DNA of 38,239 bases, from positions 1 through 38,239 of the forward strand of contig JAHCJH010000013.1 in NCBI GenBank assembly GCA_026126345.1, given 5' to 3'. Each line of letters opens with the position of its first letter. Position 1 is the stretch's first letter. The notes under the pieces were generated by a model that ran no database searches, was not told the origin of the DNA, and was given only the letters and a program-made list of their open reading frames with translations. Shown piece by piece: positions 5,035 to 29,483 of the stretch. The translations under genes were made by a program, and so were the position numbers. The DNA is from Phycisphaeraceae bacterium (GTDB lineage Bacteria; Planctomycetota; Phycisphaerae; Phycisphaerales; UBA1924).

Positions 5035-5098
5035 ATCGACCGATCGAGCGACCCGACCTGACGCCCGGGGCGACCCCCGGCGGACCGGAGCCTGAACC

Positions 5099-6058: not shown

Positions 6059-7509
6059 GCCAGATGAGCCAGGATCCGGGCAACCTGCCGGACCCCCAGG
6101 CGCCGGCCAACCCGGCGATGGTGGTGCGTCGCCGGCCGGCGAGCGTGACGCTGCGCGGCCAGAGCGGCGAGCCGACGGGCTCGACGCTGCTGGACCCGGC
6201 GAACCAGTCGCTGGCCGACGCGCTGAAGATCACCTACCGGCTGCTGCAGCTGGGCATGGTGGCGCTCGTGGCGGTGTTCGTGCTGTCGGGGTTGCAGTCG
6301 GTCAAGGAGGGCGAGCGGGGCATCCGCGTGGTGTTCGGCAAGGTCGAGAGCGACGATCTGCCGCCGGGATTCCAGTTCAGCCTGCCGCGGCCGATGGGTG
6401 AGATCGTGAAGGTGCCGACGGGGCAGCAGTCGATCGTGCTTCTGACGGAGTTCTTCCCGGGCCTGCGCCGGGAGGACATGGACAAGACGGACCAGGACCT
6501 GGCCAAGATGGCCAAGAACACGCTGGACCCGATCGGGGACGGGTCGCTGCTGACGGGCGACCTGAACATCGCGCACACGCGGTGGGAGATCCGGTACCAG
6601 CGGCAGCCGGCGCAGATCCGCCAGTACGCGGCGAACGTTGACCCGGACACGGAGCAGCGCATCGTCCGCGCGGCGGCGATGCAGGCGGTGGTGCAGGCGG
6701 CGGCGGGGCTGACGATCGACGAGCTGTTCAAGAACCTGCCGGACGCTTCGCGGACGGGGGCGTTCATGACGGTGGAAGAGCGTGCCAAGAGCCTGGCGCA
6801 GCGGACGCTGGACCGGATGCGGACGGGGATCGAGATCGAGTCGATGAAGATCATCCGCAAGATCCCGCCGATGAACCTGATCAACGACTTCGAGCAGGTG
6901 AACACCAGCGTGCAGACGGCTCAGAGCGTCGCCGAGCAGGCCGAGCAGGAGCGGCAGGCGACGCTGGCGGGGACGGCGGGCGACGCGGCGGGGCTGCTGC
7001 TGCGGCTGATCGGCGCGTACGACACGGCGCTGAGCGCCGGCGACCGTGCCGCGGCCGACGCGGCGCTGGAGCGGATCGATGCGGTGCTGGACGACAAGCC
7101 GGTGGAACTGGACGGGCGGCCGGTGAGCGTGCGGGTGACGGGGCGGGCCGCGGCGCTGCTGGCCGAGGCGCGGCAGTATCGCGCGAGCGTGGTGAGCCGG
7201 GCGCAGGCCGAGGCGAAGCTGTTCGAGGTGAAGCTCGCCAGCTACCGTGCGAACCCGCAGGTGGTGCTGGCCGGCGACTGGGCGGAGGCGTTCAGCGCGT
7301 TCCTGGCGCGGGACACCGTGCAGGTGTTCTGGCTGCCGGGGGGCACGCGGACGCTGGAGCTGTTCCTGAACCGCGACCCGGACGTGCAGCGCGAGCAGGA
7401 GCAGGCCCGGGCCAAGCGCCTGGCCGAAGAAGTTGCCCGGCAGCAGGCCAAGGAGCTGCAGGATCGGCAGTTCCAGCCGACGAACGAGATCAAGGCCCGC
7501 ATCGAGTAG
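6055..7509 (+). CDS. SPFH/Band 7 domain protein, HflK-like
   Basis: This 484-residue protein has a Pro/Gly-rich cytoplasmic N-terminus (about 1-58) like that of HflK, one helix (about 62-80) and an SPFH domain opening with VKEGERGIRVVFGKV and LPPGFQFSLPRPMGEIVKV (about 83-120). A helical stalk rich in Gln/Glu/Ala follows (about 280-400), interrupted by a segment at 310-350. After a short hydrophobic stretch it ends in a charged coiled coil (QREQEQARAKRLAEEVARQQ). The GTG at 6055 overlaps the previous stop (GTGA); an ATG at 6064 (MSQDPGN) is an in-frame alternative. Three SPFH proteins in a row is more than the usual HflK-HflC pair. The ABC ATPase gene starts 48 bp downstream, which suggests that the SPFH assembly serves the transporter. 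Confidence 0.88.
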   Translation: MSQMSQDPGNLPDPQAPANPAMVVRRRPASVTLRGQSGEPTGSTLLDPANQSLADALKITYRLLQLGMVALVAVFVLSGLQSVKEGERGIRVVFGKVESDDLPPGFQFSLPRPMGEIVKVPTGQQSIVLLTEFFPGLRREDMDKTDQDLAKMAKNTLDPIGDGSLLTGDLNIAHTRWEIRYQRQPAQIRQYAANVDPDTEQRIVRAAAMQAVVQAAAGLTIDELFKNLPDASRTGAFMTVEERAKSLAQRTLDRMRTGIEIESMKIIRKIPPMNLINDFEQVNTSVQTAQSVAEQAEQERQATLAGTAGDAAGLLLRLIGAYDTALSAGDRAAADAALERIDAVLDDKPVELDGRPVSVRVTGRAAALLAEARQYRASVVSRAQAEAKLFEVKLASYRANPQVVLAGDWAEAFSAFLARDTVQVFWLPGGTRTLELFLNRDPDVQREQEQARAKRLAEEVARQQAKELQDRQFQPTNEIKARIE

Positions 7510-7557
7510 CGGGCCGCAGAGTGAACACGCGCCGCCGCGGGGCGGCCAGGAACGCGC

Positions 7558-8775
7558 ATGGCCACCGAGAGCGCCCGACAGCCGATCGTCGCCGTCCAGG
7601 GACTGGTGAAGACCTTCAAGGACTTCTGGATGCGCACGCGCGCTCGGGCGGTGGACGGGGTGACGTTCCACGTTGACCCGGGGGAGATCTTCGGGCTCTT
7701 GGGGCCGAACGGCTCGGGCAAGAGCACGACGATCAAGATCGTGCTGGGGCTGCTGAAGCCGACGTCGGGCCGGGTGGCGGTGTTCGGCAAGCCCCCCACC
7801 GACGTGGGCGTCAAGAAGCGGATCGGCTACCTGCCTGAGGAGTCGTACCTCTACCCGTTTCTGAACGCCCGCGAGACGCTGGACTACTACGGGAAGCTGT
7901 TCGAGCTTGACCACAAGGTGCGCCGGCGGCGCACGGACGAATTGCTGGACATGGTGGGACTGGCGGGGGTGCAGTTCCGAGCGGTGCGGGAGTATTCCAA
8001 GGGCATGCAGCGTCGGATCGGCCTGGCGCAGGCGCTGATCAACGACCCGGACCTCCTGATCCTCGACGAGCCGACGACGGGGCTGGACCCGATCGGCACG
8101 CGCCAGGTGAAGGACCTGATCCTGGCGCTGGGGCGGCGGGGCAAGACCATCGTGCTGTCGAGCCACCTGCTGTCGGACGTGGAGGATTGCGTCAGCCGGA
8201 TGGTGATCCTGTACGGCGGGACGATCCGCGCCGAGGGGACGTGCGACGAGCTGCTGACCAGCCGCAGCGCGAGCCTGATCGAGACGGACCTGCTGGACGA
8301 CGGCACGGTCGCGGAGATCGACGCGCTGCTGCGGCGGCGCGGGGGCCTGGCGGTGAACCGGGTGAGCAAGCCGCGCCAATCGCTCGAGTCGCTGTTCATC
8401 GACATCGTGGAGCGGGCGGTCCGCGAGAAGGTGGCGACCAGCGGCGCTCAGCACACGGGGGACGTGGCGGGCTTCCTGAAGGCGGCTCCGGTGGAAGGCG
8501 CGGCGCTGATCAGCGAACTGGTGGAGGCGGCGCGCCGCCCCGAACCGGCGGCCCCCGCGACGGCGCCGCAACCGGCGGCGGCCCGGAGCGGCCCGGACGC
8601 CGACGTGCTGGGGTCGCTGCTGGCGCCCAAGGAAGCGGCGGCGACGGGCGAAGCTCCCGCGGGCGGGAAGACGCCCGCGCCGGCCGCGAAGGCGCCGACC
8701 CCGGCGGCGAATGTTGACAAGGGCGTGATCGACGCGCTGCTCAACGGCGGCGAGCAACCGGGGGCCAAGCCGTGA
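7558..8775 (+). CDS. ABC transporter ATP-binding protein with long C-terminal tail
   Basis: This 405-residue nucleotide-binding subunit is of the ABC-2 exporter (drug/polysaccharide/CcmA-like) class. Walker A GPNGSGKST is at 49-57, the YLPEE element in place of a standard Q-loop at 91-95, signature YSKGMQRR at 146-153, Walker B LLILDE at 166-171, D-loop GLD at 175-177 and H-loop His at 203. All catalytic residues are present. The region 240-325 resembles the accessory domain common in this class. Residues 326-405 form an Ala/Pro-rich linker with two short hydrophobic motifs, DADVLGSLLA and VIDALLNGG, the second like the EIDALL peptide of FliM. AGGA precedes the ATG at 7558. The stop overlaps the next gene's GTG as GTGA, so this ATPase should energise the 8772-10805 permease and might also serve the divergent permease. 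Confidence 0.93.
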   Translation: MATESARQPIVAVQGLVKTFKDFWMRTRARAVDGVTFHVDPGEIFGLLGPNGSGKSTTIKIVLGLLKPTSGRVAVFGKPPTDVGVKKRIGYLPEESYLYPFLNARETLDYYGKLFELDHKVRRRRTDELLDMVGLAGVQFRAVREYSKGMQRRIGLAQALINDPDLLILDEPTTGLDPIGTRQVKDLILALGRRGKTIVLSSHLLSDVEDCVSRMVILYGGTIRAEGTCDELLTSRSASLIETDLLDDGTVAEIDALLRRRGGLAVNRVSKPRQSLESLFIDIVERAVREKVATSGAQHTGDVAGFLKAAPVEGAALISELVEAARRPEPAAPATAPQPAAARSGPDADVLGSLLAPKEAAATGEAPAGGKTPAPAAKAPTPAANVDKGVIDALLNGGEQPGAKP

Positions 8776-10805
8776 CGTTCTCGGAGCGTTTGGCGCGGCT
8801 GAACAGCCTGCAGCAGGGGCTGTGGTTCAAGCTGGTCGCCACCGGGGTGGTGGTGGCGCTGGCGGTGGCGGCGCTGGTGACGTACTCGGTGCGGTCGGCG
8901 GCGCTGCAGCGGGCGGAGGCCGACACGCTGATCACGATCCCGACGGCCGAGCCGAAGGCGCCGGGCTCGGCCGAGGACGACCGGACCAAGGCCCCGACGG
9001 CCGAGGCGCAGGCGACGGAGGAGATCCGGCGGATGGCCGAGGCCAACGCGCGGGTGATCCGCAACATCCAGCTGACGCGGTACAGCGTGGGCTCGATCGC
9101 CGTGGGGCTTGGGCTGGGCGTGCTGGTGTGCCTGGCGGTGGTGTGGATCGGCTCGGGGCTGACGTACCTGGCGGTGGCGACGGCGGCCCTGGTGACGGCG
9201 GCTCCGCTGGTGGTGTTCGGGAACGAATCGTGGCGCGGGTTGGGGCTGTTCCTGTCGTTCGCGCTGACGCTGGCGTCGGTGTTCAGCGGGCTGATGCAGG
9301 CGCTGCGGGTGGCGCTGAGCGCCTCGAACCCGGTGACGGCGATCGCGCGGAACGTGGTTTCCGAGGCGGTGCGGATGCGGATCACGGTGGTGTTCATGGT
9401 GGTGCTGATCGTGGCGCTGGCGGCCTTGCCGGGCACGCTGGACGCCAACACGCCGCTGCGCTACCGCGTGCAGGCGTTCCTGCAGTACGGCGCCGGGGGC
9501 GCGTTCTGGCTGGTGTCGCTGCTGACGGTGTTCCTGGCTGCCGGGAGCGTGGCCTTCGAGCAGCGCGACAAGATCATCTGGCAGACGATGACCAAGCCGG
9601 TGAAGGCCTGGCAGTACGTGCTGGGCAAGTGGCTCGGCGTGGCGGGCGTGTCGGCGGTGCTGCTGCTGGCCAGCGCCGCGGGCATCTTCCTGTTCACGGA
9701 GTACCTCCGCAACGGCAAGGCGCCGGACGAGCGAGCCCCGTTCGTGCCGGCCGACGAGACGCTGGCGGTGACCGAGGACCGGCTCGTGCTGGAGTCGCAG
9801 ATCCTGGTCGCGCGGGAAACGGTGCGGCCGACGATCCCGCCGGCGGACGCCGCGGCGATCAACGCGGAGGTGAAGCGCCGGTTCGACCTGGCGATGCAGG
9901 AGTTCAACAACGATCTGACGCAGGTAACGCCGCGCCCGGACGAGCAGCGGATCATGATGGACGTGGCGCGGGACCGGCTGACGGAGTTCCTGTCGATCCC
10001 GCCGAACCTGGACCGGCCGCACCTGTACGAGTTCGACGGTTTGAAGGCGGCCAAGGACCTGGGGCGGCCGCTGACGTTCCGCTACCGCTTCAACGCGGGG
10101 AGCAACCTGCCGACGGATCTGTACCGGGTGACGTTCCTGGTGCCGGGGTGGAACCCGCAGATCGTCTCGGCCCCGCTGGGGCAGACGCTGTCGATGACGC
10201 TTTCGGCCTCGGCGATCACCGAGAAGCAGGTGCAGAACAACGACGGCTCGACCAGCACCGACTGGGTGCTGCCGGTCTACATCTTCAACGGCGACCTGTC
10301 CCGCCAAACGGTGAACCGCGAGACGATCGTCTTCCCGCCCGACGGGCTGGAACTGTCATACCCGGTGAGCGACTGGCGGTGGAACTTCGTCCGCGCGGCG
10401 GTGGTGCTGTGGCTCAAGACGACGTTTCTGGCGATGGTGGCGATCGCGGCTTCGACGTTCCTGTCGTTCCCTGTGGCGTGCCTGACGGCGTTCGGGGTGC
10501 TGTGGATGGCCGAGGGGGCGACGTTCCTGGCCAACGCGCTGGACAACTACGGCACGATCCAGGGCAGCGAGCGTGAGTTCCTGTGGTGGCGCGTGCCCAT
10601 CATCGCCATCGCGACGCCGATCAGCACCATCTTCAGGTTCTATTCGGATCTGTCGCCGGTAGCCAACGTGGTCGAGGGGCGGCTTCTATCGTGGAACCTG
10701 CTCGTGCAATCGACGATCATCCTGGGCTCGCTGAACGCGGCCCTGTTCGCCATCGGTTCGTTCATCTTCCGCCGGCGCGAACTGGCTACCTACTCGGGCC
10801 AGTAG
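8772..10805 (+). CDS. Large ABC-2 type transporter permease
   Basis: This 677-residue protein is polytopic. A first helix at about 23-42 is followed by a charged Pro/Ala/Glu stretch (about 50-100). Further helices lie at about 110-130, 134-152, 160-180, 205-223, 238-260 and 290-312. A long soluble region (about 315-540) probably lies outside the cytoplasm, and the last helices span about 545-600 and 645-668. The element FEQRDKIIWQTMTKPVKAWQ followed by LGKWLGV is the ABC-2 cytoplasmic loop and aligns in kind with SREIERR...SKPV in the divergent permease. It ends with FRRRELATYSGQ, an arrangement common in ABC-2 permeases. The GTG start overlaps the ATPase stop. The substrate is unknown; the large soluble region suggests contact with an envelope partner. 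Confidence 0.85.
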   Translation: MTFSERLARLNSLQQGLWFKLVATGVVVALAVAALVTYSVRSAALQRAEADTLITIPTAEPKAPGSAEDDRTKAPTAEAQATEEIRRMAEANARVIRNIQLTRYSVGSIAVGLGLGVLVCLAVVWIGSGLTYLAVATAALVTAAPLVVFGNESWRGLGLFLSFALTLASVFSGLMQALRVALSASNPVTAIARNVVSEAVRMRITVVFMVVLIVALAALPGTLDANTPLRYRVQAFLQYGAGGAFWLVSLLTVFLAAGSVAFEQRDKIIWQTMTKPVKAWQYVLGKWLGVAGVSAVLLLASAAGIFLFTEYLRNGKAPDERAPFVPADETLAVTEDRLVLESQILVARETVRPTIPPADAAAINAEVKRRFDLAMQEFNNDLTQVTPRPDEQRIMMDVARDRLTEFLSIPPNLDRPHLYEFDGLKAAKDLGRPLTFRYRFNAGSNLPTDLYRVTFLVPGWNPQIVSAPLGQTLSMTLSASAITEKQVQNNDGSTSTDWVLPVYIFNGDLSRQTVNRETIVFPPDGLELSYPVSDWRWNFVRAAVVLWLKTTFLAMVAIAASTFLSFPVACLTAFGVLWMAEGATFLANALDNYGTIQGSEREFLWWRVPIIAIATPISTIFRFYSDLSPVANVVEGRLLSWNLLVQSTIILGSLNAALFAIGSFIFRRRELATYSGQ

Positions 10806-10842
10806 CACCGCAAGACCTCTGCCCGACCGCCGGACACCCCGC

Positions 10843-12825
10843 ATGCGAGCTTTCGCCCGAACCCAGATCGTCGCCTCGATCGCCCTGGCGGTATCGCTGG
10901 CCGCCAGCGGGCTGCTGACGGTGCGGATCGCATCGTCGGCGGGCCGGCACCAATTGACGTACACGGGCAAGGCCGAAGAGGGCATGACGCGGGAGGAGGC
11001 GCTGGGGGTGGCGCTGGGGGCGTTCCGCGGGCTGTTCGTCAACTGGCTCTGGATCCGCGCCAACGAACTGAAGGAAGCGGGCAAGTACTACGAGGCGGTG
11101 GACCTGGCGCGGTCGATCACGCGCTTGCAGCCGCGGTTCCCGCGGGTGTGGGCGTTCCACGCCTGGAATCTGGCGTACAACATTTCGGTGGCGACGCAGA
11201 CTGCCGGGGAGCGCTGGCAGTGGGTGAACGCGGGGATCCGGCTGCTGCGCGACGAGGGGATCCCCGCGAACCCGTCGGACCTCCTGCTGCACAAGGAACT
11301 GGCCTGGATCTTCCTGCACAAGGTGCAGGGGGTGATGGACGACGCGAACAACGTGTACAAGCGAGAGCTCGCGCGGGAGTGGACGATCGCGCTGGGCCCG
11401 CCGCCGCCCCGGACCAAGGAGACGCGGACGGTCGAAGCGATCACGGCGCGGCACGTGGAGTGGCTGCAGCGCATCGCCAACGGCCGGAACACGATCGAGG
11501 AGGTGCGCGCATCGGGCCCGCAGGCCGTGGCGCTCATCGATCGGCTCAAGGCCGAGGCGGGCCTGGACCCCGCGACCCTCCAGGGCCGGCTGGAGATCCT
11601 GAGGCACATCGAGGAATCCCGCTCGGCCGTGCGGAAGATGGAGGCGTTCGGGGTCGAGAGCCAATTCCCCGGTAACCTCAACGCGTCGCTGATCCGGCTG
11701 CTCTCCGACGCTTCGTTGCGGCCGGGGTGGGAGGCGCTGTCGCCCTACCTGCGCAAGCGGCTGCTCATCGACCACTACCATATGGAACCGGAGCGGATGG
11801 TCCGCTTCACGCAGAAGTACGGGCCGATCGACTGGCGGCATCCGTGCGCCCATTCGCTGTACTGGGCCGCGCGGGGCGTCGAGGAGGCATTGACGCGGCT
11901 CAACGAGTACAACGAGCGCAACATGGACTTCGTGAACACCGACCGCCTGGTGCTCCAGAGCCTGCAGGAGCTGCGCCGGGGCGGGCAGGTGATGTACGAC
12001 ATCCTGCTGCCGGACATGTACGTGCAGATCCCCAGCGGCGACTTCATCAAGAGCTACGAGGGGGTGATCGAAGAGCTCATGGAGCGCGAGGCCGACCAGA
12101 TGGCCCTGCAGGGGGCCGACATGAAGCGGCGGGTCTTCCGCTTCTACGCCGCGGCGTACGAGAATTTCCTGAGCGATGCGCTCGCGTTCCTCTACCGGCG
12201 TGGTCAGGTGGAGGAAGCCAAACGCTATCAACAGAAGCTGGCGACGTGGGAAGGCCGGAACCTGAACGACCTGGAGCAGGACCGGATCCGCAAGCTGCCG
12301 ATCGACGAGTACATCCTGCAGAACCTCAAGGAACGGATGACCGACCCGTCGGTGGCGCGGAGCGAGGTGTGGGCGGGCCTGTTCGGCGCGTACCTCAACG
12401 GGTTGTACGTCGGCGATGAGGACCTTTTCCGCTCGCAGTTCAACTACGCGCAGATGGTGCACCGCACGTACATGGACGAGCAGCTTCGGCTCACGACGGT
12501 GGACCTGACGCGGGCGCGGATGGAAGTAATGGACCGGGACTTCCGCGTGGAGGCATCGCGTGCATTCGTCGCCATCGCCGGGGCGCTGAGTCCGTTCGAC
12601 TCCGCGCTCATGTTCCAGCGGACGCCCAACGACCTGCGCCTGGCGATCTACTACCTCATGGACCGGGCCAAGATGGTGCCCATGAATGAAGACGGGTCGC
12701 CGGCCACGCCGGAACTGGGCAGGCTGTTCCCGACGCCGCCGGACTACGCGGCGTACCGGGCTGCCCGCGATGCGCAGGAAGCGGCCCGAAAGGCCCAGGA
12801 CAAGGCGAACCAGGACCTGAAGTAG
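10843..12825 (+). CDS. Membrane-anchored helical-repeat (TPR-like) protein, unknown function
   Basis: This 660-residue protein has one N-terminal helix (about 8-28) and then an almost entirely helical body. Early repeats look TPR-like (WIRANELKEAGKYYEAVDLA, then TRLQPRFPRVWAFHAWNLAY), and similar aromatic-rich helical pairs recur to the end. The protein ends in a charged Ala/Lys tail. I recognise no catalytic motif. It begins 37 bp after the permease stop on the same strand without an obvious promoter, so it probably belongs to the SPFH-ABC operon and may act as a periplasmic scaffold or assembly factor. No strong Shine-Dalgarno precedes the ATG at 10843. It converges on purC with 18 bp between stops. 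Confidence 0.75.
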   Translation: MRAFARTQIVASIALAVSLAASGLLTVRIASSAGRHQLTYTGKAEEGMTREEALGVALGAFRGLFVNWLWIRANELKEAGKYYEAVDLARSITRLQPRFPRVWAFHAWNLAYNISVATQTAGERWQWVNAGIRLLRDEGIPANPSDLLLHKELAWIFLHKVQGVMDDANNVYKRELAREWTIALGPPPPRTKETRTVEAITARHVEWLQRIANGRNTIEEVRASGPQAVALIDRLKAEAGLDPATLQGRLEILRHIEESRSAVRKMEAFGVESQFPGNLNASLIRLLSDASLRPGWEALSPYLRKRLLIDHYHMEPERMVRFTQKYGPIDWRHPCAHSLYWAARGVEEALTRLNEYNERNMDFVNTDRLVLQSLQELRRGGQVMYDILLPDMYVQIPSGDFIKSYEGVIEELMEREADQMALQGADMKRRVFRFYAAAYENFLSDALAFLYRRGQVEEAKRYQQKLATWEGRNLNDLEQDRIRKLPIDEYILQNLKERMTDPSVARSEVWAGLFGAYLNGLYVGDEDLFRSQFNYAQMVHRTYMDEQLRLTTVDLTRARMEVMDRDFRVEASRAFVAIAGALSPFDSALMFQRTPNDLRLAIYYLMDRAKMVPMNEDGSPATPELGRLFPTPPDYAAYRAARDAQEAARKAQDKANQDLK

Positions 12826-12843: not shown

Positions 12844-13803
12844 TCAGCGGCAGAGGCGTTCGAGCGCTTCGGCGTACCGGGCCTGGGTGCCGCGGACGAT
12901 GTCGGCCGGCAGTTCGGGGCCGGGCGGGGACTTGTCCCACGCGCGGGACGCCACGAGCGATTCGAGGTATTCGCGGAGGAACTGTTTGTCGAAGCTGCGC
13001 TGCGGGCGTCCGGGCGCGTAGCCGTCGGCCGGCCAGAATCTCGATGAGTCGGGGGTGAGCACCTCATCGATGAGGATCGGCGGCTGCCAGACGCGGCCCT
13101 GGCGCGACGCGCCGCCCTCGGGCAGGCCGAATTCGAACTTGGTGTCGGCGATGATGATGCCGCGGCCGAGCGCGTACTCGGCGGCGGCGGCGTAGATGGC
13201 GAGCGTGGTGTCGCGGAGGACGGCCATGGTCTCGAGCCCGACGATCTCGGCGGCGCGGTCGAAGGAGATGTTCTGGTCGTGCCCGCTTGCTTCCTTGGTG
13301 GCTGGCGTGAAGATGGGCTGGGGCAGACGGTCGCACTGACGCAGGCCGGCGGGCAAGGCAACGCCGCAGACCGAGCCCGTGGCCTGATACTCCTTCCACC
13401 CGGAACCTTCCAGGTAGCCGCGGGCGACGCACTCGATGGGGATGACCTCGCAGCGTCGTGCGATGGTGATGCGGCCGTCCAGCCAGGCGGCGAGTTCGGA
13501 CCCCGGGGGCGCCAAGCCCGGCGGCAGGTCGGCGACGCTGGTGGACAGCACGTGCGTCTCGGCGAACCGGCGATCGCGCACGAACCCGAACCAGAACGAA
13601 GACATGGCGGTGAGGGTCCGCCCCTTGCCCGGTACGGGCGTGGGCATGACCACGTCGAAGGCGGAGATGCGATCGGTGGCGACGATCAGGAGCCGGCCCT
13701 CGCCCCCCGGGCGGGCGGGGGGCAGGGCGTAGACGTCACGGACCTTGCCGCGGCGGACCAGCGGCAGGTCGATGGGCGGGGGGGCGTCGGCTCGGGTGGT
13801 CAC
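12844..13803 (-). CDS. purC: Phosphoribosylaminoimidazole-succinocarboxamide synthase (SAICAR synthetase)
   Basis: This 319-residue enzyme joins CAIR and aspartate with ATP to give SAICAR in purine synthesis. Visible marks are the glycine-rich ATP loop LVRRGKVRDVYALP (about 15-28), ATDRISAFD (42-50), the CAIR-binding IPIECVARGYLEGSGWKEY region and SFDKQFLREYLES near the C-terminus. The length fits the roughly 300-residue bacterial/yeast Ade1-type form rather than the short 240-residue form. The frame continues 16 codons further upstream, but the GTG at 13803 is chosen because it gives MTTRADAPPPIDLPLVRRGK and a TACCTT hexamer ends 6 nt before it. It stands alone, away from purE-purK at 26-28 kb. 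Confidence 0.96.
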   Translation of the reverse strand: MTTRADAPPPIDLPLVRRGKVRDVYALPPARPGGEGRLLIVATDRISAFDVVMPTPVPGKGRTLTAMSSFWFGFVRDRRFAETHVLSTSVADLPPGLAPPGSELAAWLDGRITIARRCEVIPIECVARGYLEGSGWKEYQATGSVCGVALPAGLRQCDRLPQPIFTPATKEASGHDQNISFDRAAEIVGLETMAVLRDTTLAIYAAAAEYALGRGIIIADTKFEFGLPEGGASRQGRVWQPPILIDEVLTPDSSRFWPADGYAPGRPQRSFDKQFLREYLESLVASRAWDKSPPGPELPADIVRGTQARYAEALERLCR

Positions 13804-13809
13804 GCCCCC

Positions 13810-13815
13810 AAGGTA
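13810..13815 (-). promoter_or_regulatory. Putative -10 of a leaderless purC promoter (TACCTT)
   Basis: On the minus strand TACCTT is followed by GGGGGC and the GTG start at 13803, so transcription would begin at or near the start codon. The GGGGGC is too close to act as a Shine-Dalgarno site. No clear -35 is seen. Confidence 0.45.
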
Positions 13816-13913
13816 GCGGCGCCGCCACGTTCGGGCGAGCCGAGCATGCACCGGATTGGAGCCGGGCCGCTATCCTCCGTTTCTCGCGGTTCGACCCCTC
13901 CGATGCCCCGACC

Positions 13914-15581
13914 ATGCTGAAGTTTGCGGTCTTCGACGAGTCCGGCCCGGCCACCGCGTGGAACCTGCGCCACCAGCACCTCATCGGGTCGGACGACGTG
14001 GTCGTGCCGTCGGAGATCGCGTTCGAGGGGGGCCTGATCCAGTGCCGCAAGCGGATCGACGGCTCGGCGGCGCTGGGGCTGCAGTTCCCGGTCGCCGACG
14101 AATCCGGCGGCGAGGGGAGCCTGCTGACGCTGCGGACGTGCCTGCTGCGCGACCGGGAAGAGCCGTATCTGCTGTCGCTGGAGCTGGCGCGCTACCGCAT
14201 CCTGCTGCTGCTGAACAAGCTCGAAGAGTGGGCCCTGTTCGGCGAACCGGCGGACGACCCCGCCATGCGACTGGTGGAACAGGCCCGCGACGCGTTCACG
14301 CACGCCCTGGTGGAGCAGCACTACTCGGCGGCGGTCAAGGGCAGGGGCGGGTACACGCCGGCCGCGGACCGTGCCGCCCGGTCGGCGCTGGCGCTGGCGC
14401 TCAAGGCCGGGGAGGCGCTGGCGCTGCTGCAGAGCCGGGTGATGTACGCGCGGCGGCTGAACGGCACGCTGGCGGCGATCGCGTCGCAGTCGCCGCCGGC
14501 CAACGCGATCACGGACCATGAGGCGCGGGCGGGCCGGGCCGCGCTGCTGGGCAGCCCGGGGGTGATCCTGCCGGAGCCGGCGCGGATCGGCTGCTCGGTG
14601 AACCCCGCGCAGTTCACGCCGGAGTTGTGCGCCCTGGCGCAGCAGGCGTGCGACTTCGTAACGATCCCGATGCGATGGGTGGAGATGGAGCCGACCGAGG
14701 GCAAGTACGCCTTCGCGCGCACGGACAAGTGGATCGAATGGGCGGTGACCAAGGCCAAGCTGCCGGTGACCGCCGGCCCGGTGGTGGACTTTCACGCGCG
14801 GTCGGCGCCGCGCTGGCTGGGAATCTGGGAGCACGACTACGAGACGCTGCGGGACGTGGTGTTCGAGCACGTCAAGGCCCTGGTGACGCGGTACCGCCGG
14901 ACGGTCGGGGTGTGGACCGTCTGCTCGGGCCTGCACGCGGGCAACGGGTTCTCGCTGACGCCCGAGCAGGCGATCGACCTGACTCGCACGTGCGTCATGG
15001 TGGTGCGGAAGCTCCAGCCCACGGCCAAGGTTCAGGTCGAGATCGCCCAGCCCTGGGGGGAGTACACGGGCGAAGCTGGCCCGAAAGGGGCGCGGTCCAT
15101 CCCCCCCACCGTCTATTGCGACTTCATGCAGCAGGTGCAGTGCCACGTCGATGCGTGGGCCGTCCGCCTGCAGATGGGCCAGCCCGAGCCGGGCAAGTCG
15201 GCCCGCGACCTGCTGGCAATTTCGGCGATGCTCGATCGGTTCGCGGCGTTCGACGTTCCCGTCGCGGTGACGGCGATGGGCTGCCCGGCGGCGCCCCTGC
15301 CCGCGCCCGGCGATGGAGAACTGGAGCCCGGGCACTGGCGGCGGCACTGGAACCCCGAGCACCAGGCCGAGTGGATGGCTCACCTCGGCGCGATCATCGC
15401 GGCCAAGCCGTTCGTCACCAGCCTGTGCTGGCAGGACCTGTACGACCCGTCGGCGCAGGCCGAGATGCCCGCCGGCGGCCTGGCGACGGCGAGCGGGGCC
15501 GCCCGGCCGGTGGCCCGCGTGCTGAGCGAACTGCGGGGTGCGCTCCGGGGCGGCAGACCGATTCTGCCCGGATCGGCGTAG
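13914..15581 (+). CDS. GH10 xylanase-like protein lacking catalytic glutamates
   Basis: The 555 residues contain an unassigned N-terminal domain (1-215, strands then helices) and a C-terminal barrel (about 220-545) that follows glycoside hydrolase family 10 landmarks. CDFVTIPMRWVEMEPTEGKY matches the family's VTxENxMKWxxxEPxxG strand, VVDFHARSAPRWL matches HxLVWHxQxPxW, VTRYRRTVGVWTV matches RYKGxxxxWDVVNE, and VTSLCWQDLYDPS matches the last WGxxDxxSW strand. The acid/base Glu position is Gly (VWTVCSG, 334-339) and the nucleophile position is Ala (VAVTAMG, 450-456), so hydrolysis is not expected. There is no signal peptide. It diverges from purC, and TATCCT at 13871-13876 is a possible -10. 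Binding or structural use of the barrel is an inference. Confidence 0.75.
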   Translation: MLKFAVFDESGPATAWNLRHQHLIGSDDVVVPSEIAFEGGLIQCRKRIDGSAALGLQFPVADESGGEGSLLTLRTCLLRDREEPYLLSLELARYRILLLLNKLEEWALFGEPADDPAMRLVEQARDAFTHALVEQHYSAAVKGRGGYTPAADRAARSALALALKAGEALALLQSRVMYARRLNGTLAAIASQSPPANAITDHEARAGRAALLGSPGVILPEPARIGCSVNPAQFTPELCALAQQACDFVTIPMRWVEMEPTEGKYAFARTDKWIEWAVTKAKLPVTAGPVVDFHARSAPRWLGIWEHDYETLRDVVFEHVKALVTRYRRTVGVWTVCSGLHAGNGFSLTPEQAIDLTRTCVMVVRKLQPTAKVQVEIAQPWGEYTGEAGPKGARSIPPTVYCDFMQQVQCHVDAWAVRLQMGQPEPGKSARDLLAISAMLDRFAAFDVPVAVTAMGCPAAPLPAPGDGELEPGHWRRHWNPEHQAEWMAHLGAIIAAKPFVTSLCWQDLYDPSAQAEMPAGGLATASGAARPVARVLSELRGALRGGRPILPGSA

Positions 15582-15620: not shown

Positions 15621-16088
15621 ATGGGCGGCGGAACTGAACGCGACGACTGGACGGACGGCCCGGCCAAGTGGGCCGCGGTGATCGTGCTCGCAATCGCGTC
15701 GGCGGCGGGGCTGGCGTGGGCGGTGCTGCGGCCGGTCGGCCCGCCGGTGGTTCGGGCGGCTGTCGAACCCCGGCCCGCGCCGGTCGATGAATCGGAGACC
15801 CTGGACGGCTCCCGGCCCGTTCCGACGAGCGGCCGGGCAGAGACGCGGGCGGCCTCGGCCGATGCGCCAACACCCGCCAAGCCCGCGTTCAGCGGCACGC
15901 TGAACATCAACACCGCCAGCGCGGCGGAACTGGAGGCGTTGCCGGGCATCGGCCCCGCGCTGGCAGGGCGGATCATCGACGATCGCGCGGCCAACGGGCC
16001 GTTCCGCACGGTGGACGACCTGGATCGCGTTCGCGGCATCGGACCCAAGACGCTGGAACGGCTGCGGCCGTACCTGCGCGTGCAGTGA
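15621..16088 (+). CDS. ComEA-like helix-hairpin-helix protein
   Basis: This 155-residue protein has an N-terminal anchor helix (about 17-36), a Pro/Ala/Glu-rich linker (about 40-92) and a ComEA-type double helix-hairpin-helix domain (about 94-153). The domain shows [20 protein letters not shown] and [16 protein letters not shown], with the two GIG hairpins that hold DNA backbone. ComEA binds incoming double-stranded DNA outside the membrane during natural transformation. The layout (anchor, flexible linker, HhH at the C-terminus) fits this. No ComEC or other competence gene is adjacent, although the pilus/secretion genes start just downstream on the other strand. HhH proteins of this size are also found without competence, so the role is inferred. 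Confidence 0.85.
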
Positions 16089-16188: not shown

Positions 16189-16665
16189 TCAGTAGGTGTT
16201 GTACTTCACGCCGCGGGCGTCGGTCTCACCGTCGGCGCAGTTGGCCTTGATGGTGCCGTCGGCCTCGGTGTAGATCCAGCCGATGTTGGCGGCGTCGGCG
16301 GCGGCGATGCCGCTCTTGCCCTTCTTGGCGCCGACGGGCAGGGCGGGGATGGCGCGGATGTAGGGGCCGAAGACGAAGGTGCTGCTCTTGGAGGCATTGG
16401 TGGCGCCGGCGTCGTCGGAGTAGAGGGTGAGCTGGTCGGCGATGGTGGCGGCCGCGGGGTAAGTGTTGTTGTGCTCGGTGTAGAACAGGTCGATGGCGTT
16501 GCGCAGGACCTTGAGGTTGGCGGTGAGCGTCGCGTCGGAGGCGCCGGCGGAGCCGCGCGACATCCGGGGAATCGCGATCGCGGCGATGATGCCGATGATC
16601 ACGACGACGATGACCAGTTCGATGAGGCTGAACGCGCGCCGGCGACCGGCAAACGAGGCGACCAT
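16189..16665 (-). CDS. Type IV pilin-like/GspG-like major pseudopilin
   Basis: This 158-residue prepilin has a short basic leader MVASFAGRRRA and then FSLIELVIVVVIIGIIAAIA, the class III signal. Cleavage is expected between Ala11 and Phe12, leaving Glu at mature position 5 (Glu16). Ala at -1 in place of the usual Gly is tolerated in some pilins. The body has an alpha-1 helix with TANLKVLRNAIDLFYTEHNN, then a globular part with WIYTEADGTIK and a single Cys near the C-terminus. GspG-type pseudopilins build the type II secretion piston and similar planctomycete proteins are major pilins; which applies here is not decided. The ATG at 16665 has AGGAG upstream; the frame extends further, but those codons would precede the leader. 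Confidence 0.88.
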   Translation of the reverse strand: MVASFAGRRRAFSLIELVIVVVIIGIIAAIAIPRMSRGSAGASDATLTANLKVLRNAIDLFYTEHNNTYPAAATIADQLTLYSDDAGATNASKSSTFVFGPYIRAIPALPVGAKKGKSGIAAADAANIGWIYTEADGTIKANCADGETDARGVKYNTY

Positions 16666-16769
16666 GGTGTGCTCCTGTGTCAGTGCGTTTCTTGTGACCC
16701 TTGCGTGTTGGCCGGGAAACACCGGCGCCGATACTCCGGATCGACCGCTTCGCGACGCCGCTTAAGGGA

Positions 16770-16794
16770 CTCGGCCCGGGATCGTCCGGGCGAG
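16770..16794 (-). terminator. Hairpin after the PilM-to-PilP-like operon
   Basis: On the minus strand CTCGCCCGG pairs with CCGGGCCGAG around a short loop, 4+5 bp with one bulged base. It begins 15 bp after the stop of the PilP-like gene and lies before the pilin gene. A short TCCCTT follows instead of a T-run. The rest of 16666-16808 holds no gene and should contain the pilin promoter; I could not place a convincing -10 there. Confidence 0.4.
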
Positions 16795-16808
16795 CGACGT
16801 CGGCGTGG

Positions 16809-17390
16809 TTATGGGGCCGGGGGCTTGGCGCGGATGACGGCGGGTTCGTTGTCTCCGGGCGCCTTGCCGGGCAGGTAGACCTCGGTGGTGTGCTCCGCGC
16901 CGATGAACGTGGCGCTCGACTCGCCGATCCGCCGCAGCGTCATGCCGAGGTACGAATCGCCCTCGCGCATCACCTGGCCGTCGATCAGGACCACGCGACC
17001 GCCATTGGGGACGGTCATGATCGCGCCGAGGCGCTTGCCGGCCAGCGGAGAAGGGGTCTGCGGCCCGGCCTGGCCGGCGGGGGCGGCGACTCGGGGCGCC
17101 CAGTCGGCCGGCGGTTCGAAGGCATCGCCGACGTCGCCGGTCGGCGTGGCGGCCCGGATGGCGTTCAGTCGGGCGGCCATCCACGTGTAGGCGGTCGTCC
17201 CCGTCTCGGCGCGCTGGGCCCGTGCCGTGCGCGACGGAGCTTCGGTCGCGCCCGAGAGCTCGGCCGGCGACGCGTCGGCGCCGGCGGGTCCGCTGAGCGT
17301 CGAGCCGAGGAAGACGCGGTCGATGAACAGCGCAGCGCCGGACAGGCACATGATCCCCGCGATGATCTTGCGTTGCTTGCTGACGGCCAT
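16809..17390 (-). CDS. PilP/GspC-like inner-membrane protein
   Basis: This 193-residue protein has an N-terminal anchor (about 8-28) and a low-complexity Ala/Pro/Thr linker. A C-terminal domain of about 55 residues (119-173) contains LGAIMTVPNGGRVVLIDGQV, followed by a REGDSYLGMTLRRIG stretch. This small beta domain after a linker is the architecture of the GspC/PilP homology region, which contacts the secretin from the inner-membrane side. The sequence match is weak, and the call leans on its place as the last gene after pilM, pilN and pilO. The ATG at 17390 is chosen because it gives MAVSKQRKIIAG just before the helix. It starts 20 bp after the pilO stop and is followed by a terminator-like hairpin. 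Confidence 0.6.
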   Translation of the reverse strand: MAVSKQRKIIAGIMCLSGAALFIDRVFLGSTLSGPAGADASPAELSGATEAPSRTARAQRAETGTTAYTWMAARLNAIRAATPTGDVGDAFEPPADWAPRVAAPAGQAGPQTPSPLAGKRLGAIMTVPNGGRVVLIDGQVMREGDSYLGMTLRRIGESSATFIGAEHTTEVYLPGKAPGDNEPAVIRAKPPAP

Positions 17391-17410
17391 GGGGTGCTCT
17401 CGCGCTGGGG

Positions 17411-18022
17411 TCAAGGGCTGGAAGGCGCGGCGCTGACGGTCCGGGCGGCGCCGCGCGCCTGGGCGGGCAGTGCGAACCACGCCAGTTCGACGGTGAACCT
17501 CGCGGCGCCGGGCGCGGACCCGTCGCGGGCGATCTGGATCGCGGTGATCTCGGTGTCCTTGAACGACGCGTGGAGCGACGTCAGGAGTTCCGCGAACCGG
17601 GGGTAGGCGCTCTGGCCGCTGAGCCGGATGGGCACGATCTCGAACCGGCCGCTGCGGGCGGTCTGGCCCGGGGTGATCTGGCTGAGCTTCACCTCTCCGG
17701 GCCCGATCGACTCGCCGAGGGCCGCCAGCGCGGCCAGGCGGGCGTTGATCTCGTCGACCCGGCGCAGCTGCACCGGCGCCCGGTCGGCCTGCGCCCGCAC
17801 TTTGCCCAGCCGCTCGTGGGCGTCGCGCAGAACCTCGTCGGCCCGCGTCACCTCTTCGCGCCGCTGCTCCAGCAGGGACGTGCGCTCGGACAGCTCGGCC
17901 GAGGCAGCCCAGCGCGGTCCGAGGAACAGCGCGTAGACCACGAGCGTCGCCAGGATGATGGCGGCCAGCCCGGCGCCGTCGATCAGCGCGGTCGTTCGGT
18001 GCGCCCGGTTCGTCGTGTTCAT
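17411..18022 (-). CDS. pilO: PilO-like type IV pilus/type II secretion assembly protein
   Basis: The 203 residues comprise a short cytoplasmic N-terminus, one helix (about 15-33) and a coiled coil (about 38-85, Glu/Arg-rich). The C-terminal ferredoxin-like domain contains IVPIRLSGQSAYPRFAELLT and the long-range beta strands typical of PilO/GspM. PilO pairs with PilN in the periplasm to form the alignment ring between inner-membrane motor and secretin. The ATG at 18022 overlaps the pilN stop (ATGA), and GGAGGAG lies just upstream inside pilN, so it is well supported for re-initiation. The frame is open far upstream, but only as a shadow of pilN. Confidence 0.83.
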   Translation of the reverse strand: MNTTNRAHRTTALIDGAGLAAIILATLVVYALFLGPRWAASAELSERTSLLEQRREEVTRADEVLRDAHERLGKVRAQADRAPVQLRRVDEINARLAALAALGESIGPGEVKLSQITPGQTARSGRFEIVPIRLSGQSAYPRFAELLTSLHASFKDTEITAIQIARDGSAPGAARFTVELAWFALPAQARGAARTVSAAPSSP

Positions 18023-18696
18023 GTGCTCCTCCCGCCCGCTCGCGATCGCGGTCCTTCGGGCGTTGCCGCCGGCGGCTGCGCTTCGCAACGGATGCGGAAC
18101 GCGGTCGCGGGCGCCCCGTGCGACTCTGTGGGCGCGGTTTCGGCGATCTGCACGCGCGTGAACAACCCGGTCTGCTCCAGTCGGATCGCCAGCTGCGCCA
18201 CGGCCGAGGGTGTGCGGGCGGCGCCCGAGAGCGTCAGCGTGAACAGCTCCGGCGCGCCCGGCCGGGCGGGGGCGGACGCTTTGGGAGCGGGCGATCCCGG
18301 GGGCGCGGCCGACCCGGCGCCCATGGGACGCGGGCCGGAAATCTCGACGGCGTCGAGCACCGCGTCGTCCTGGCGCAGGCGCGACACCAGGTCGATGAGG
18401 ATCGACCAATCGGGGTGCTCGGTCACCGATCGCGTCGCGTCGATGTCGCCCTGCACCTCGAGCAGCTTGGGCCTCAGCTCCTTGAGTCGAGCTTCGGCGG
18501 TTTCGAGCCGCTGGCGGGCTTCGGCCAGCGCGCGATCGGTTTCGGCGGCGGCCGACGACACGTCGGGCCCCAGCAGCGGCGCGGCGGCGAGCAGGCCAAC
18601 GCCGTAGACCGCGCCGATGATGCTCCAGGTTCGCACGCGGGACCGGGCGGCGAGCCTGCACTTCCGCGTTCCGGGGAGCAGGTTCACGCTGTTCAT
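18019..18696 (-). CDS. pilN: PilN-like type IV pilus/type II secretion assembly protein
   Basis: This 225-residue protein starts MNSVNLLPGTRK, the conserved cytoplasmic NLLP motif with which PilN binds PilM. One helix follows (about 26-44), then a coiled coil (about 50-85) and a ferredoxin-like periplasmic domain with ILIDLVSRLRQDDAVLDAVE and FTLTLSGAARTPSAVAQLAI. A Pro/Ala/Gly-rich insert (about 125-150) interrupts that domain. The start overlaps the pilM stop (ATGA) and its own stop overlaps pilO. The order pilM-pilN-pilO is the canonical one, which makes the assignment firm despite low expected identity in this family. Confidence 0.87.
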   Translation of the reverse strand: MNSVNLLPGTRKCRLAARSRVRTWSIIGAVYGVGLLAAAPLLGPDVSSAAAETDRALAEARQRLETAEARLKELRPKLLEVQGDIDATRSVTEHPDWSILIDLVSRLRQDDAVLDAVEISGPRPMGAGSAAPPGSPAPKASAPARPGAPELFTLTLSGAARTPSAVAQLAIRLEQTGLFTRVQIAETAPTESHGAPATAFRIRCEAQPPAATPEGPRSRAGGRST

Positions 18697-19757
18697 GGGA
18701 CGGTCACCTCCGCGGCCACGCGTTGGCCGTGCAGCGCCAGGCCCGCCGCGAGCATGAGTCCGACGCCCCCGGCGTGGAGCTCGTGCCCCGACGTGTCGGC
18801 CAGGCGGTCGAGGGTTACGGGCACCCCCGAGCCGCCGAACACCTTGGACAGCTCGGCGCTGACGCCGGGGAACTCGCTGCCGGCGCCCACGAAGGCCACC
18901 GTCTCGTCGGCGGCGCTCGAGGGGTACTTCTGCGACACGTAACCGAGCGAGAGCTGAAGCTCGCGACGGAGGCTCTCGCAGAAGTCCCGGATCGTCGCGC
19001 CGGCCTCTTCGAGATCGGCCCACGGAGACTGGAGCGTCTGACGCTGGGCAACCAGCACGCCGACGGTCTGCTCATCGACCGAGAGCCGGCTTGCCAGCGC
19101 CCTGATCAACTGCGCAGCGCCGTGCTCGGGCAGGTGCCGCTGGAGCACCACGGCGCCGTCGCGCACGGCAATGACCAGCGAGGAGCCCATGCCGACGCTC
19201 ACGAACGCTCCGGCACGCGGAGCGGCTGGCGTCACCGAGCGCTGCAGGGCCAGCGCCGGCGCGTCGATGGCGATCACCTCGAGGCCCGCCCGCTCGAGGG
19301 ACTCGACGGGCCGTTCCAGGTCCGCGGCGCGGGCGGCGACGACCATGCAGGGTGCGCCGGTGAACTTCTGGCCCGCGGGCGGAGCGATCTCCCACAGACC
19401 GACCTCGAGCCCGGCGGGATCGCACTTGTGGGTGCGGGCCATCTCGGCCGCGGCGATCACGTCGACGGGCGCGCCGCTGCGCCGGGGCGGCAGGTCGAGC
19501 ACGCCGGTGAGCAGCTGCTCCTGCGGGGCCGCGATCACGCACCGGTTGCCCGAGAACCCCTGGCGGCGCAGCACCTCGGCCAGGCGCTCGGCCTCGGCGT
19601 CGCCCAGGGGGCGCCCGGGCTCGGCGCGTTCGATCTCCGCCGCGGCGGCAAGCGCCGGGCGCGTTCCGGCGCAGCGCAGCTGGACGGCGCGGATGCCGGT
19701 CGGCCCGATGTCGATCCCGATGGGCGTGAGCCCGCGTGAGAACCTGTTCAGCATCAT
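18693..19757 (-). CDS. pilM: PilM-like actin-fold assembly protein
   Basis: This 354-residue protein has an actin/FtsA-type ATPase fold. The phosphate-1 element PIGIDIGPTGIRAVQLR lies at about 12-28, and a second phosphate element begins GAFVSVGMGSSLVIAVRDGA. An adenosine-binding part includes VAFVGAGSEFPGVSAELSKV. In pilus systems PilM is the cytoplasmic ring that binds the PilN N-terminus and contacts the assembly ATPase. The start codons at 19757 and 19754 are adjacent (MMLN), and the first overlaps the upstream stop. The long open frame beyond 19757 is a shadow of gspF. No frameshift or truncation is seen. Confidence 0.88.
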   Translation of the reverse strand: MMLNRFSRGLTPIGIDIGPTGIRAVQLRCAGTRPALAAAAEIERAEPGRPLGDAEAERLAEVLRRQGFSGNRCVIAAPQEQLLTGVLDLPPRRSGAPVDVIAAAEMARTHKCDPAGLEVGLWEIAPPAGQKFTGAPCMVVAARAADLERPVESLERAGLEVIAIDAPALALQRSVTPAAPRAGAFVSVGMGSSLVIAVRDGAVVLQRHLPEHGAAQLIRALASRLSVDEQTVGVLVAQRQTLQSPWADLEEAGATIRDFCESLRRELQLSLGYVSQKYPSSAADETVAFVGAGSEFPGVSAELSKVFGGSGVPVTLDRLADTSGHELHAGGVGLMLAAGLALHGQRVAAEVTVP

Positions 19758-20991
19758 CCACCTCCCGCGCCGGCGCTGGTCAGGTCGAACAGCGGCAGGA
19801 ACATGCTCATGGCGACCAGGCCGACCGCCACCCCGAGCACCACCAGGATCAGCGGCTCGATGATCGAGGTGAGGGTCTTGACGACGACTTCGTTGTCCTC
19901 GTCGAGGAAGTCGGCGATGCTCAGCAGCACGGGGGCGACCTGACCGGTGCGCTCGCCGCTCCGCAACGCTTCGACCACCGATGGGCTGATGAGTGAGGAC
20001 CCCTCCAGGGCCGAGGTCACGGTCTCGCCGCGGGTCACGTTCTGCTCGGCTCGCTCGATGAGCGCGGCGTAGAGGCTGTTGCCCGAGGCCTGGCGGGTCA
20101 GGGCCAGGGCGTCGAGCAGGGCGACCTTTCCCTCGAGCAGGACGCCCAGCACTCGGGCGATGCGGGCGGTCGCGAACGCGCGGGTGACCTTGCCGAGTTG
20201 GGGCAGGCGCACGGCGGCCCGGTCGAACGCCAGGCGACCCGCGTCGCTGCGGAGGAACGCCACCAGTCCTGCCACCGCCGCCAGCAGCGCGCCGCCGTAG
20301 AAGTACCAGTGCTGGCGCAGCTCGCGACCCGCGTCCATCAGGATCGCGGTGCTGGGCGGCAGCGGGGCGCCGAGCTGCTCGAACAGGCCCTCGAACCGCG
20401 GCATCACGAAGCCGATCATCAGCCCCATCACCGAAACGGCGACGCACATCAGCACGGCGGGATAGACCATCGCGCCGGCGACGGCCCCGCGGATCTTGAG
20501 TTGCTGGCGGGTGAGCGCCGAAAGCCGAACCAGCATGTCGCCCAGCTTGCCGCGCGATTCGCCGGCGGCGATCAGGCTGCGGCAGACCGGATCGAACCAG
20601 CCGGGGTGCGCCTCCAGGGCGGCAGACAGCGTGGAGCCTTCCTCGACGCGCCGGCGCACGTCGGACACGACCGTTCGCCAGGCGCCGTCGGGCAACTGCC
20701 GCTCCAGGACGGTGATGGCCTCGACGGCGGGGGTGCCGGTGGAGATGAGCACGCTGAGCTGGCGCATGAACAGCGCCAGGTCCTTGAGGCGGCGGGTCTT
20801 GCCCCAGGTGACCAGGCGGTCGGCTCGCTGCGACCCGGCCGACGGCGCGGAGTCGCCGGCGCCGGCGGGGCGCACCTCTGTAACGAAGAGTCCCTTGCGG
20901 CGCGCGGCGTCGCGTGCCTCGTCGGCGGTGGCCGCCTCGAGAACGCCGCGGGAAGCGGCGCCCGAGCCGTCGAAGCCGGCGTACGCCCACT

Positions 20992-20995
<4 letters not shown>
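19754..20995 (-). CDS. gspF: GspF/PilC-type inner-membrane platform protein
   Basis: This 413-residue protein starts MKWAYAGFDGSGAASRGVLE, the small beta N-domain common to GspF/PilC. It then has two copies of the T2SSF helical domain (about 65-190 and 265-395), each ending in membrane helices at about 165-190, 215-235 and 375-400. Typical family phrases are LALFMRQLSVLISTGTPAVE in the first repeat and ATARIARVLGVLLEGKVALLDAL in the second. The protein is the membrane platform turned by the assembly ATPase. The length is normal. The ATG overlaps the gspE stop (20992-20995) and its stop overlaps pilM. Confidence 0.94.
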
Positions 20996-22835
<1,840 letters not shown>

Positions 22836-22839
<4 letters not shown>

Positions 22840-23171
22840 AGGAAGCTCCTCACGGCCGTCTGCACGTCCTGGTAGTGCTCGAAGTAGCGCGCCGTTTCGG
22901 TGAGCTCCAGCGTTTCACGCAGGGTTTCGCCCTCGCCGCACAGGCGCAGGGTCTGCCCGCTCTCGGCCAGGTCGGCGCTGACCTCGACCAGCACCTCGAG
23001 CCCACGGCTGTCCAGGAACGGCACGGCCGACGCGTCGACCACGAACCGGCCCAGCGACCGGCCGACGACCTCGGCGACGTGCTTCTTGAACTGCTCGGCG
23101 TCGGCGCCGACCAGCGCGCCGATCGGCTTGACCACCGTCACCGCGCCCTGTCGCTGCTCGTCGATCTGCAC
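22836..23171 (-). CDS. STAS-domain protein (anti-sigma-factor antagonist type)
   Basis: This 111-residue single STAS domain is of the SpoIIAA/RsbV kind: a beta strand VTVVKPIGALVGADAEQFKK, then RFVVDASAVPFLDSRGLEVL, whose Ser55 occupies the position phosphorylated in anti-anti-sigma factors, and helix 2-strand LAESGQTLRLCGEGETLRET. Such proteins bind serine-kinase anti-sigma factors or act as phospho-switches in larger complexes. No anti-sigma kinase or sigma factor is next to it. The GTG at 23171 is chosen because AGGAGG lies 6 nt upstream; a GTG at 23192 overlapping the kinase stop (GTGA) is the alternative and adds seven residues. It lies between a histidine kinase and gspE in one transcript, which suggests control of the secretion/pilus machine. 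Confidence 0.85.
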
Positions 23172-23177
23172 GCCGAT

Positions 23178-23183
23178 CCTCCT
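23178..23183 (-). promoter_or_regulatory. Shine-Dalgarno site AGGAGG deciding the STAS gene start
   Basis: On the minus strand a perfect AGGAGG is followed by ATCGGC and the GTG at 23171. It lies downstream of the competing GTG at 23192, so it can serve only the later start. Confidence 0.65.
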
Positions 23184-23188
23184 GCCGC

Positions 23189-25072: not shown

Positions 25073-25101
25073 CGTCTTCCTCAAGGCGCACGTCCCCTGC
25101 G

Positions 25102-25119
25102 GCCGGCCACCGTGCCGGC
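25102..25119. other. Hairpin in the leader of the kinase operon
   Basis: Two GCCGGC hexamers around CACCGT form a 6-bp stem, extendable by a G-T and a C-G pair. It lies about 30-47 nt upstream of the kinase GTG on the minus strand. Function is unknown. Confidence 0.4.
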
Positions 25120-25169
25120 TGGAAGATGGGATCGGCTGAGTCTCGGAGGCCTTTGAGCCAGACCTGTGA

Positions 25170-25190
25170 TTCGCCCCCCCTCCGGGCGAA
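25170..25190. other. Perfect 7-bp hairpin in the divergent intergenic region
   Basis: TTCGCCC (25170-25176) pairs with GGGCGAA (25184-25190) across a 7-nt pyrimidine loop on the plus strand. The rest of 25073-25356, the 284-bp spacer between the kinase and the rubrerythrin-like gene, contains no credible gene. TACTGT at 25332-25337 is a possible plus-strand -10. Confidence 0.4.
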
Positions 25191-25356
25191 GGCGGACGGC
25201 TTCTCGGACGGTCGCGGAACCGACAGGCCGGACTTGTGGCGGCCTTGGCGTCGATCTGCGGCGATTGCGCCGAGTTTCTGGGCCGAACACGCGGGAATGC
25301 GCCGTCTGAATCCAACCCGCCCGTGAAGGCGTACTGTTCGGTGAAGGGAGCCGACC

Positions 25357-27756: not shown

Positions 27757-27763
27757 CGCCGCC

Positions 27764-27769
27764 ATTCTA
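27764..27769 (-). promoter_or_regulatory. Putative -10 of a leaderless purEK promoter (TAGAAT)
   Basis: On the minus strand TAGAAT, matching 5 of 6 bases of the sigma-70 -10, is followed by GGCGGCG and the ATG at 27756. Confidence 0.5.
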
Positions 27770-27852
27770 GAACCGGGCCGACACCGCACGGCTTTGCACA
27801 ATCTTGATCGGCGCACGCGGCGGAAAGGCCCCGCGTCGCGAAGCTCCGGGGC

Positions 27853-27858
27853 TAGTCT
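27853..27858 (+). promoter_or_regulatory. Putative -10 of a leaderless promoter (TAGTCT)
   Basis: TAGTCT is followed by GCGCC and the ATG at 27864. It argues for this start over an in-frame TTG at 27804 that would put 20 hydrophilic residues in front of the signal peptide. No -35 is obvious. Confidence 0.5.
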
Positions 27859-27863
27859 GCGCC

Positions 27864-29463
<1,600 letters not shown>

Positions 29464-29483
<20 letters not shown>

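Follow-up and report, generated by a model that had tools for sequence, protein, structure and literature searches.

A family 10 glycoside hydrolase barrel without its catalytic glutamates appears to be a conserved core protein of Phycisphaerae

What does a xylanase-type barrel do in a cell after both of its catalytic residues have gone? This question is raised by one gene in a stretch of 38,239 nucleotides (the window, contig JAHCJH010000013.1 of assembly GCA_026126345.1) from a Phycisphaeraceae bacterium, whose genome is a 3.0 Mb draft within the Phycisphaerales (Planctomycetota). A sequence-only reading of the window had described the product as a barrel of glycoside hydrolase family 10 (GH10) that had lost both catalytic glutamates, and had offered two explanations, a pseudo-glycosidase of the cytoplasm that now serves in binding or structure, or an enzyme with different chemistry. 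The open reading frame is a real gene. Its frame and coordinates (Table 1) are right, its G+C contents at the three codon positions (0.71/0.51/0.94) are coding-like, as in the neighbouring genes, and it is kept across the class, with the start ATG at the same place in 20 relatives. A promoter scan around the gene found none. The Pfam GH10 family (PF00331) covers residues 225-336 of the 555-aa protein (E = 1.8e-7) with a score of 31.1 bits, which passes the curated cut-off of 22.1 bits. No second match to this family occurs in the source genome, and 41 of 43 homologues of the protein match it as well (E ≤ 0.01).

A full-length AlphaFold2 model, built from an alignment of 21 orthologues, consists of two domains (mean pLDDT 89.7, pTM 0.91). 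In the second domain, eight strands and helices alternate between residues 224 and 546, with the strands at 224-228, 248-251, 285-287, 331-338, 372-377, 414-420, 450-456 and 501-506. This agrees with the sequence-only reading, in which the GH10 landmarks had been placed at residues 220-510. When the model was searched against the PDB with Foldseek, the best 50 matches were all GH10 proteins or designs on GH10 scaffolds, so the barrel is GH10-like, which settles one of the refuting conditions set by the sequence-only reading. The top match was 8b73 (E = 1.1e-15), the TM-scores by target length of these 50 ranged from 0.48 to 0.77, and the identity to solved GH10 structures was about 12-18%. The protein thus belongs to GH10 both by the type of its barrel and by its Pfam score. 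Two foreign origins were also considered and rejected: the best viral fold matches were weaker and were mostly phage GH5 proteins, and there were no matches in 72,556 plasmids, which speaks against a mobile element.

In GH10 enzymes, strands 4 and 7 end with the two catalytic glutamates. The corresponding positions were located by alignment and by the modelled strand assignment, and the residues of 98 pseudo-GH10 homologues were compared with those of 26 GH10-like proteins encoded at other loci of the phylum. Where GH10 enzymes have WDVVNE, the protein has W334-T-V-C-S338-G339. Positions 338-339 are SG in 64 of the 98 homologues and the acid/base Glu occurs in none of them, whereas Asn-Glu is kept in 26 of the 26 other proteins. 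At the nucleophile, Thr-Glu is replaced by Thr-Ala, and a Glu at position 454 is absent from 96 of the 98 homologues, compared to its presence in 22 of the 26 other proteins (the rest being three gaps and one Lys). Both replacements reported earlier were therefore seen again, and catalytic loss extends across the orthologues and is not a property of one sequence. The two homologues with a nucleophile Glu, L107 from genome G077 (VSEL) and L058 from genome G058 (VTEL), have both lost the acid/base Glu; they are possibly intermediates or reversions. Because both catalytic glutamates and most of the other sugar-contacting residues are gone, the protein is, judging by alignment and model, unable to hydrolyse glycosides by the GH10 mechanism. 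Since both glutamates were looked for and found missing, we do not file it as an active GH10 enzyme, and on the same grounds we class it as a pseudoenzyme with the GH10 fold, which belongs to the family by fold and sequence.

Table 1. Features of the pseudo-GH10 gene and its immediate neighbours in the window
Feature	Position	Strand	Remarks
purC (SAICAR synthetase)	12844..13851	-	Divergent neighbour, 62 bp away
Pseudo-GH10 gene	13914..15581	+	555 aa plus stop; ORF, frame and coordinates verified
N-terminal domain	13914..14510	+	Residues 1-199; without known family or solved fold
Clade-specific invariant stretch	14136..14231	+	T75..L78..R81..PY85.L87..E90LAR93 and W106, in the N-terminal domain
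GH10-type (beta/alpha)8 barrel	14583..15551	+	Residues 224-546; complete; model and fold matches
G288, after strand 3	14775..14777	+	At the conserved GH10 His (GHxLxWH); Gly in 95/98
S338-G339, C-terminal end of strand 4	14925..14930	+	GH10 Asn-Glu (acid/base) position
E376, end of strand 5	15039..15041	+	At the Asn of the GH10 ND motif; charge partner of 418
R418, strand 6	15165..15167	+	At the Gln of GH10 QxH; charge partner of 376
T453-A454, strand 7	15270..15275	+	GH10 Thr-Glu (nucleophile) position
ComEA-like protein	15621..16088	+	One transmembrane stretch plus helix-hairpin-helix DNA-binding domain; TIGR00426 above cut-off

The former sugar-binding cleft has been altered as well. An orthologue alignment of the cleft, which the sequence-only reading had proposed as a check, showed that the sugar-contacting positions 288, 292, 376-377, 418, 420 and 507 are replaced. 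Beside the change at 288, a GH10 Trp has become Asp or Ser at 292 in the pseudo clade, Asn-Asp has become Glu-Ile at 376-377, Gln-x-His has become Arg-x-Gln at 418/420, and another Trp, at 507, is now Gln, His or Ser. With almost every other sugar-contacting position changed along with the catalytic ones, it is unlikely, as far as the alignment can tell, that the old cleft was reused as a site for xylan-type sugars. A broader proposal is that the altered cleft binds a glycan or a nucleotide-like ligand, the protein being a cytoplasmic lectin or sensor. Such a role has a precedent in the GH18 chitinase-like lectins, in which the glycosidase barrel was kept though catalytically dead and binds sugar (PMC3662789), and the residues W255, W301, W305, W475, W479, R431 and D432 of the former catalytic face are still conserved here. 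However, most of these conserved face residues are common to the nearest active GH10s and may just hold the fold, while the positions that contacted sugar are themselves the replaced ones, so that the cleft lacks the conserved contacts by which a lectin-type protein would be recognized, although other residues might bind a sugar. We consider this role unlikely.

Some of the new residues in the cleft vary together. The residues at 376 and 418 are oppositely charged in 65 sequences, and no sequence has two charges of the same sign there; most relatives of the window have Glu-Arg and eight sequences of the other main branch have Arg-Glu, although the swap is largely one clade-level event and few independent events lie behind the count. 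The pattern is consistent with a salt bridge that would fill the old active site. The same residues are involved in the proposal of an enzyme with different chemistry, in which R254, D292, E376, R418 and Q420 would form a working cluster at the barrel mouth. TIM barrels often acquire new activities at their catalytic face, and all five residues are well conserved inside the window's own family. Across the clade, however, the set varies: D292 is found in 68 and E376 in 66 of the 98 homologues, and in other branches E376 is replaced by R, G, S or T, R418 by E, and D292 by S, C, N or R, whereas a core gene with a single activity would be expected to retain its catalytic residues. Because no acidic pair at the barrel mouth is kept throughout the clade, new acid-base chemistry is argued against, and the second explanation of the sequence-only reading, left without support, is in our view very unlikely. 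Glu residues supplied to the catalytic places by other strands were rejected as well, since D292 and E376, the main acidic candidates at strand ends, are each missing from part of the clade. Conservation is slightly higher in the loops of the former catalytic face than in those on the other side (mean 0.44 versus 0.37); like the conservation of the five residues inside the window's own family, this counts against the reading that we prefer, a barrel serving as a platform, and may reflect a ligand or new chemistry in the pocket.

If the protein no longer cuts sugars, its distribution may tell how much it matters to its hosts. The gene was found by tblastn in 60 of 61 relatives, and it is present in 193 of 198 Phycisphaerae genomes and in 152 of the 154 of good quality. 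Because so many genomes of the class keep the gene and no homologue carries the acid/base Glu, the catalytic losses did not arise by chance. The one relative of the 61 without it (G005, of the same family) has a genome that is 87% complete, and the absence is possibly a sequencing gap. A profile search of 294 genomes of the phylum gave 42 matches with E < 1e-100, 22 of them inside the class and 20 outside (families f49, f90 and f99), followed by a gap down to 1e-69, where the proteins with NE begin. When a maximum-likelihood tree was built from the barrel, a single branch (support 96/87; present in 98% of bootstrap trees) set the pseudo sequences apart from the others. They divide into sequences of the Phycisphaerae and sequences from outside the class, and, leaving aside L190 on a very long branch, the active proteins closest to them are L097, L098 and L101. 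The divergent purC gene adjoins the locus in 26 of 61 cases, among them 7 of the 14 outside the class; because this adjacency persists outside the class, it supports vertical descent rather than transfer.

The three closest pairs of orthologues gave dN/dS values of 0.10, 0.11 and 0.10. The gene is under purifying selection, which has continued after the loss of catalysis. It is hardly credible that the gene is decaying, dispensable or a prediction artefact: loss of catalytic residues would be the expected first step of decay, but the gene is near-universal in the class, is present in one copy per genome, has a dN/dS of about 0.1 and keeps residues that are invariant between two distant branches. 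It appears that catalysis was lost once, early in planctomycete history, and that a former sugar-cutter is now a conserved core protein. We are very confident that a dead GH10 is being kept under selection.

The barrel is preceded by a further domain. The sequence-only reading had noted an N-terminal domain of unknown kind with 215 residues, and this description holds for about 200 residues. In the model, residues 2-74 are mainly beta-strands and are followed by helices at 87-105, 116-141 and 149-182; modelled alone, the domain has a pLDDT of 92.5. It had no match in Pfam or among the PDB sequences, and none among the PDB folds at E < 0.001; CorA, NEAT and filamin, the top fold matches, were rejected with probabilities of at most 0.30. 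A confident model is thus at hand for a domain that matches no solved fold. Of 101 genomes of the class, 96 carry a single copy of the domain, which is found only at the barrel's own locus; the one extra copy is a fragment at the end of a contig.

We called residues clade-specific when they vary little or not at all within the pseudo clade and differ in the three nearest active GH10s. They are T75, L78, R81, P84, Y85, R93, W106 and A131 in the 199 residues of the N-terminal domain, compared to D271, G288, Y327, G422 and P449 in the 323 residues of the barrel, a comparison made against three active relatives only, whose own N-terminal parts match weakly. Mean conservation is 0.62 over residues 69-106, the highest of any part. 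Because the new invariant residues concentrate in this domain and conservation peaks at 69-106, it may be the working surface of the protein. A pairwise hhalign comparison of the N-terminal parts of the pseudo clade and of the nearest active GH10s (E 0.002, probability 13%) is only suggestive of a domain common to both, and we do not claim one.

Where such a surface would work is indicated by the start of the protein. A hydrophobic N-terminal stretch is missing from all 98 homologues, in keeping with the earlier claim that there is no signal peptide, and because no export signal was found, the protein is probably not secreted and resides in the cytoplasm. The gene is followed after 39 bp by that of a ComEA-like protein. 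Among 36 genomes of the family, 30 have this gene next in line with the same orientation (the exceptions being G002, G004, G012, G026, G028 and G033), and across the phylum it is adjacent at 35 of 61 loci; outside the class this neighbour was not found beside the pseudo-GH10 gene. Many Phycisphaerales have an Mfd-like gene next (cluster 3, with a product of about 1130 aa recognized from its sequence). Gene order thus points, only weakly, to the ComEA-like protein or a DNA-handling process as the first partner candidate. If the ComEA-like protein is oriented as ComEA is, its helix-hairpin-helix (HHH) domain would be outside the cytoplasm, which, the pseudo-GH10 protein having no export signal, argues against direct contact between the two, and we think a functional link unlikely. 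In G005, HHH_3 matches are weak and all lie in long ORFs, and a standalone ComEA-like gene is apparently absent too.

Farther from the gene, positions 2836-12825 of the forward strand encode three consecutive Band_7/SPFH proteins, followed by the ATPase of an ABC transporter, a membrane protein of ABC-2 type and a 660-aa protein that has no Pfam match, and the ABC ATPase, the ABC-2 protein and the 660-aa protein (clusters 4-6) occur together upstream of purC in about 11 loci. Positions 16189-34967 of the reverse strand hold genes of the type IV pilus / type II secretion kind, whose products are pilin-like, PilM-like, T2SSF, two T2SSE ATPases and a secretin; genes for a histidine kinase, a purK-like product and a choice-of-anchor I protein break up the series. 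The genome also has a Competence-domain (ComEC-type) gene, at G000:C221:5075-5935, far from the ComEA-like gene.

We suggest that the product resides in the cytoplasm and that its GH10 barrel, though complete, would be incapable of hydrolysing glycosides by the GH10 mechanism. The old active site may be packed by new side chains, the charge pair at 376/418 among them, and the barrel would be a rigid body or a platform for docking; the N-terminal stretch 75-106 would bind a partner, a protein or other ligand, in a housekeeping process. As a whole this explanation is likely. Somewhat more surely, the protein works by binding rather than by any catalysis, and there is about an even chance that binding is mainly through the N-terminal domain. 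The first explanation of the sequence-only reading, a cytoplasmic pseudo-glycosidase for binding or structure, is accordingly the favoured one, given the GH10 fold, the Glu losses, the missing export signal and the strong selection. Near-universality suggests a role in a core process of these cell-biologically odd bacteria. It is a tentative and rather doubtful idea that a xylanase barrel and a previously unseen N-terminal fold were combined into an ancient core scaffold or regulator of housekeeping, perhaps in membrane DNA handling, which we mention because of the ComEA-like and, in many relatives, Mfd neighbours.

It is unusual for a glycosidase to lose catalysis once and then to be kept in nearly every member of a class. 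Because the GH10 match passes the Pfam cut-off, automatic annotation can call the protein a xylanase, and the number of GH10 enzymes tallied for Phycisphaerae may be too high by one dead copy in each genome. A literature search for a GH10 pseudoenzyme in planctomycetes, with subscription papers mostly outside its reach, found no paper and no experimental data on a non-catalytic function. Part of a CAZyme survey of 1425 planctomycete genomes names GH10 among the xylanases (PMC11131199), and GH10 goes unmentioned in a paper on Phycisphaerae genomes (PMC11266412).

Compared with the GH10 xylanases of PF00331, such as AcXyn10A (PDB 8b73), the protein shares the complete (beta/alpha)8 barrel, but both catalytic glutamates and most sugar-contacting residues are replaced, the export signal is missing and an N-terminal domain is added. 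Closer to it in the barrel tree stand L097, L098 and L101, planctomycete GH10s with Asn-Glu, whose N-terminal region is about as long as its own and which have R431, D441, Q484 and W487 in common with it. They keep WxxxNE, and L097 and L098 keep TE, while the T75..R93 motif is absent from them. In retaining a glycosidase barrel after the loss of catalysis, the protein resembles the GH18 chitinase-like lectins, narbonin and concanavalin B. The dead glycosidases of other families come from plants and animals, where most of them are secreted or serve for storage. Unlike the dead glycosidases of GH18, the one described here comes from another family and is a core gene of a bacterial class.
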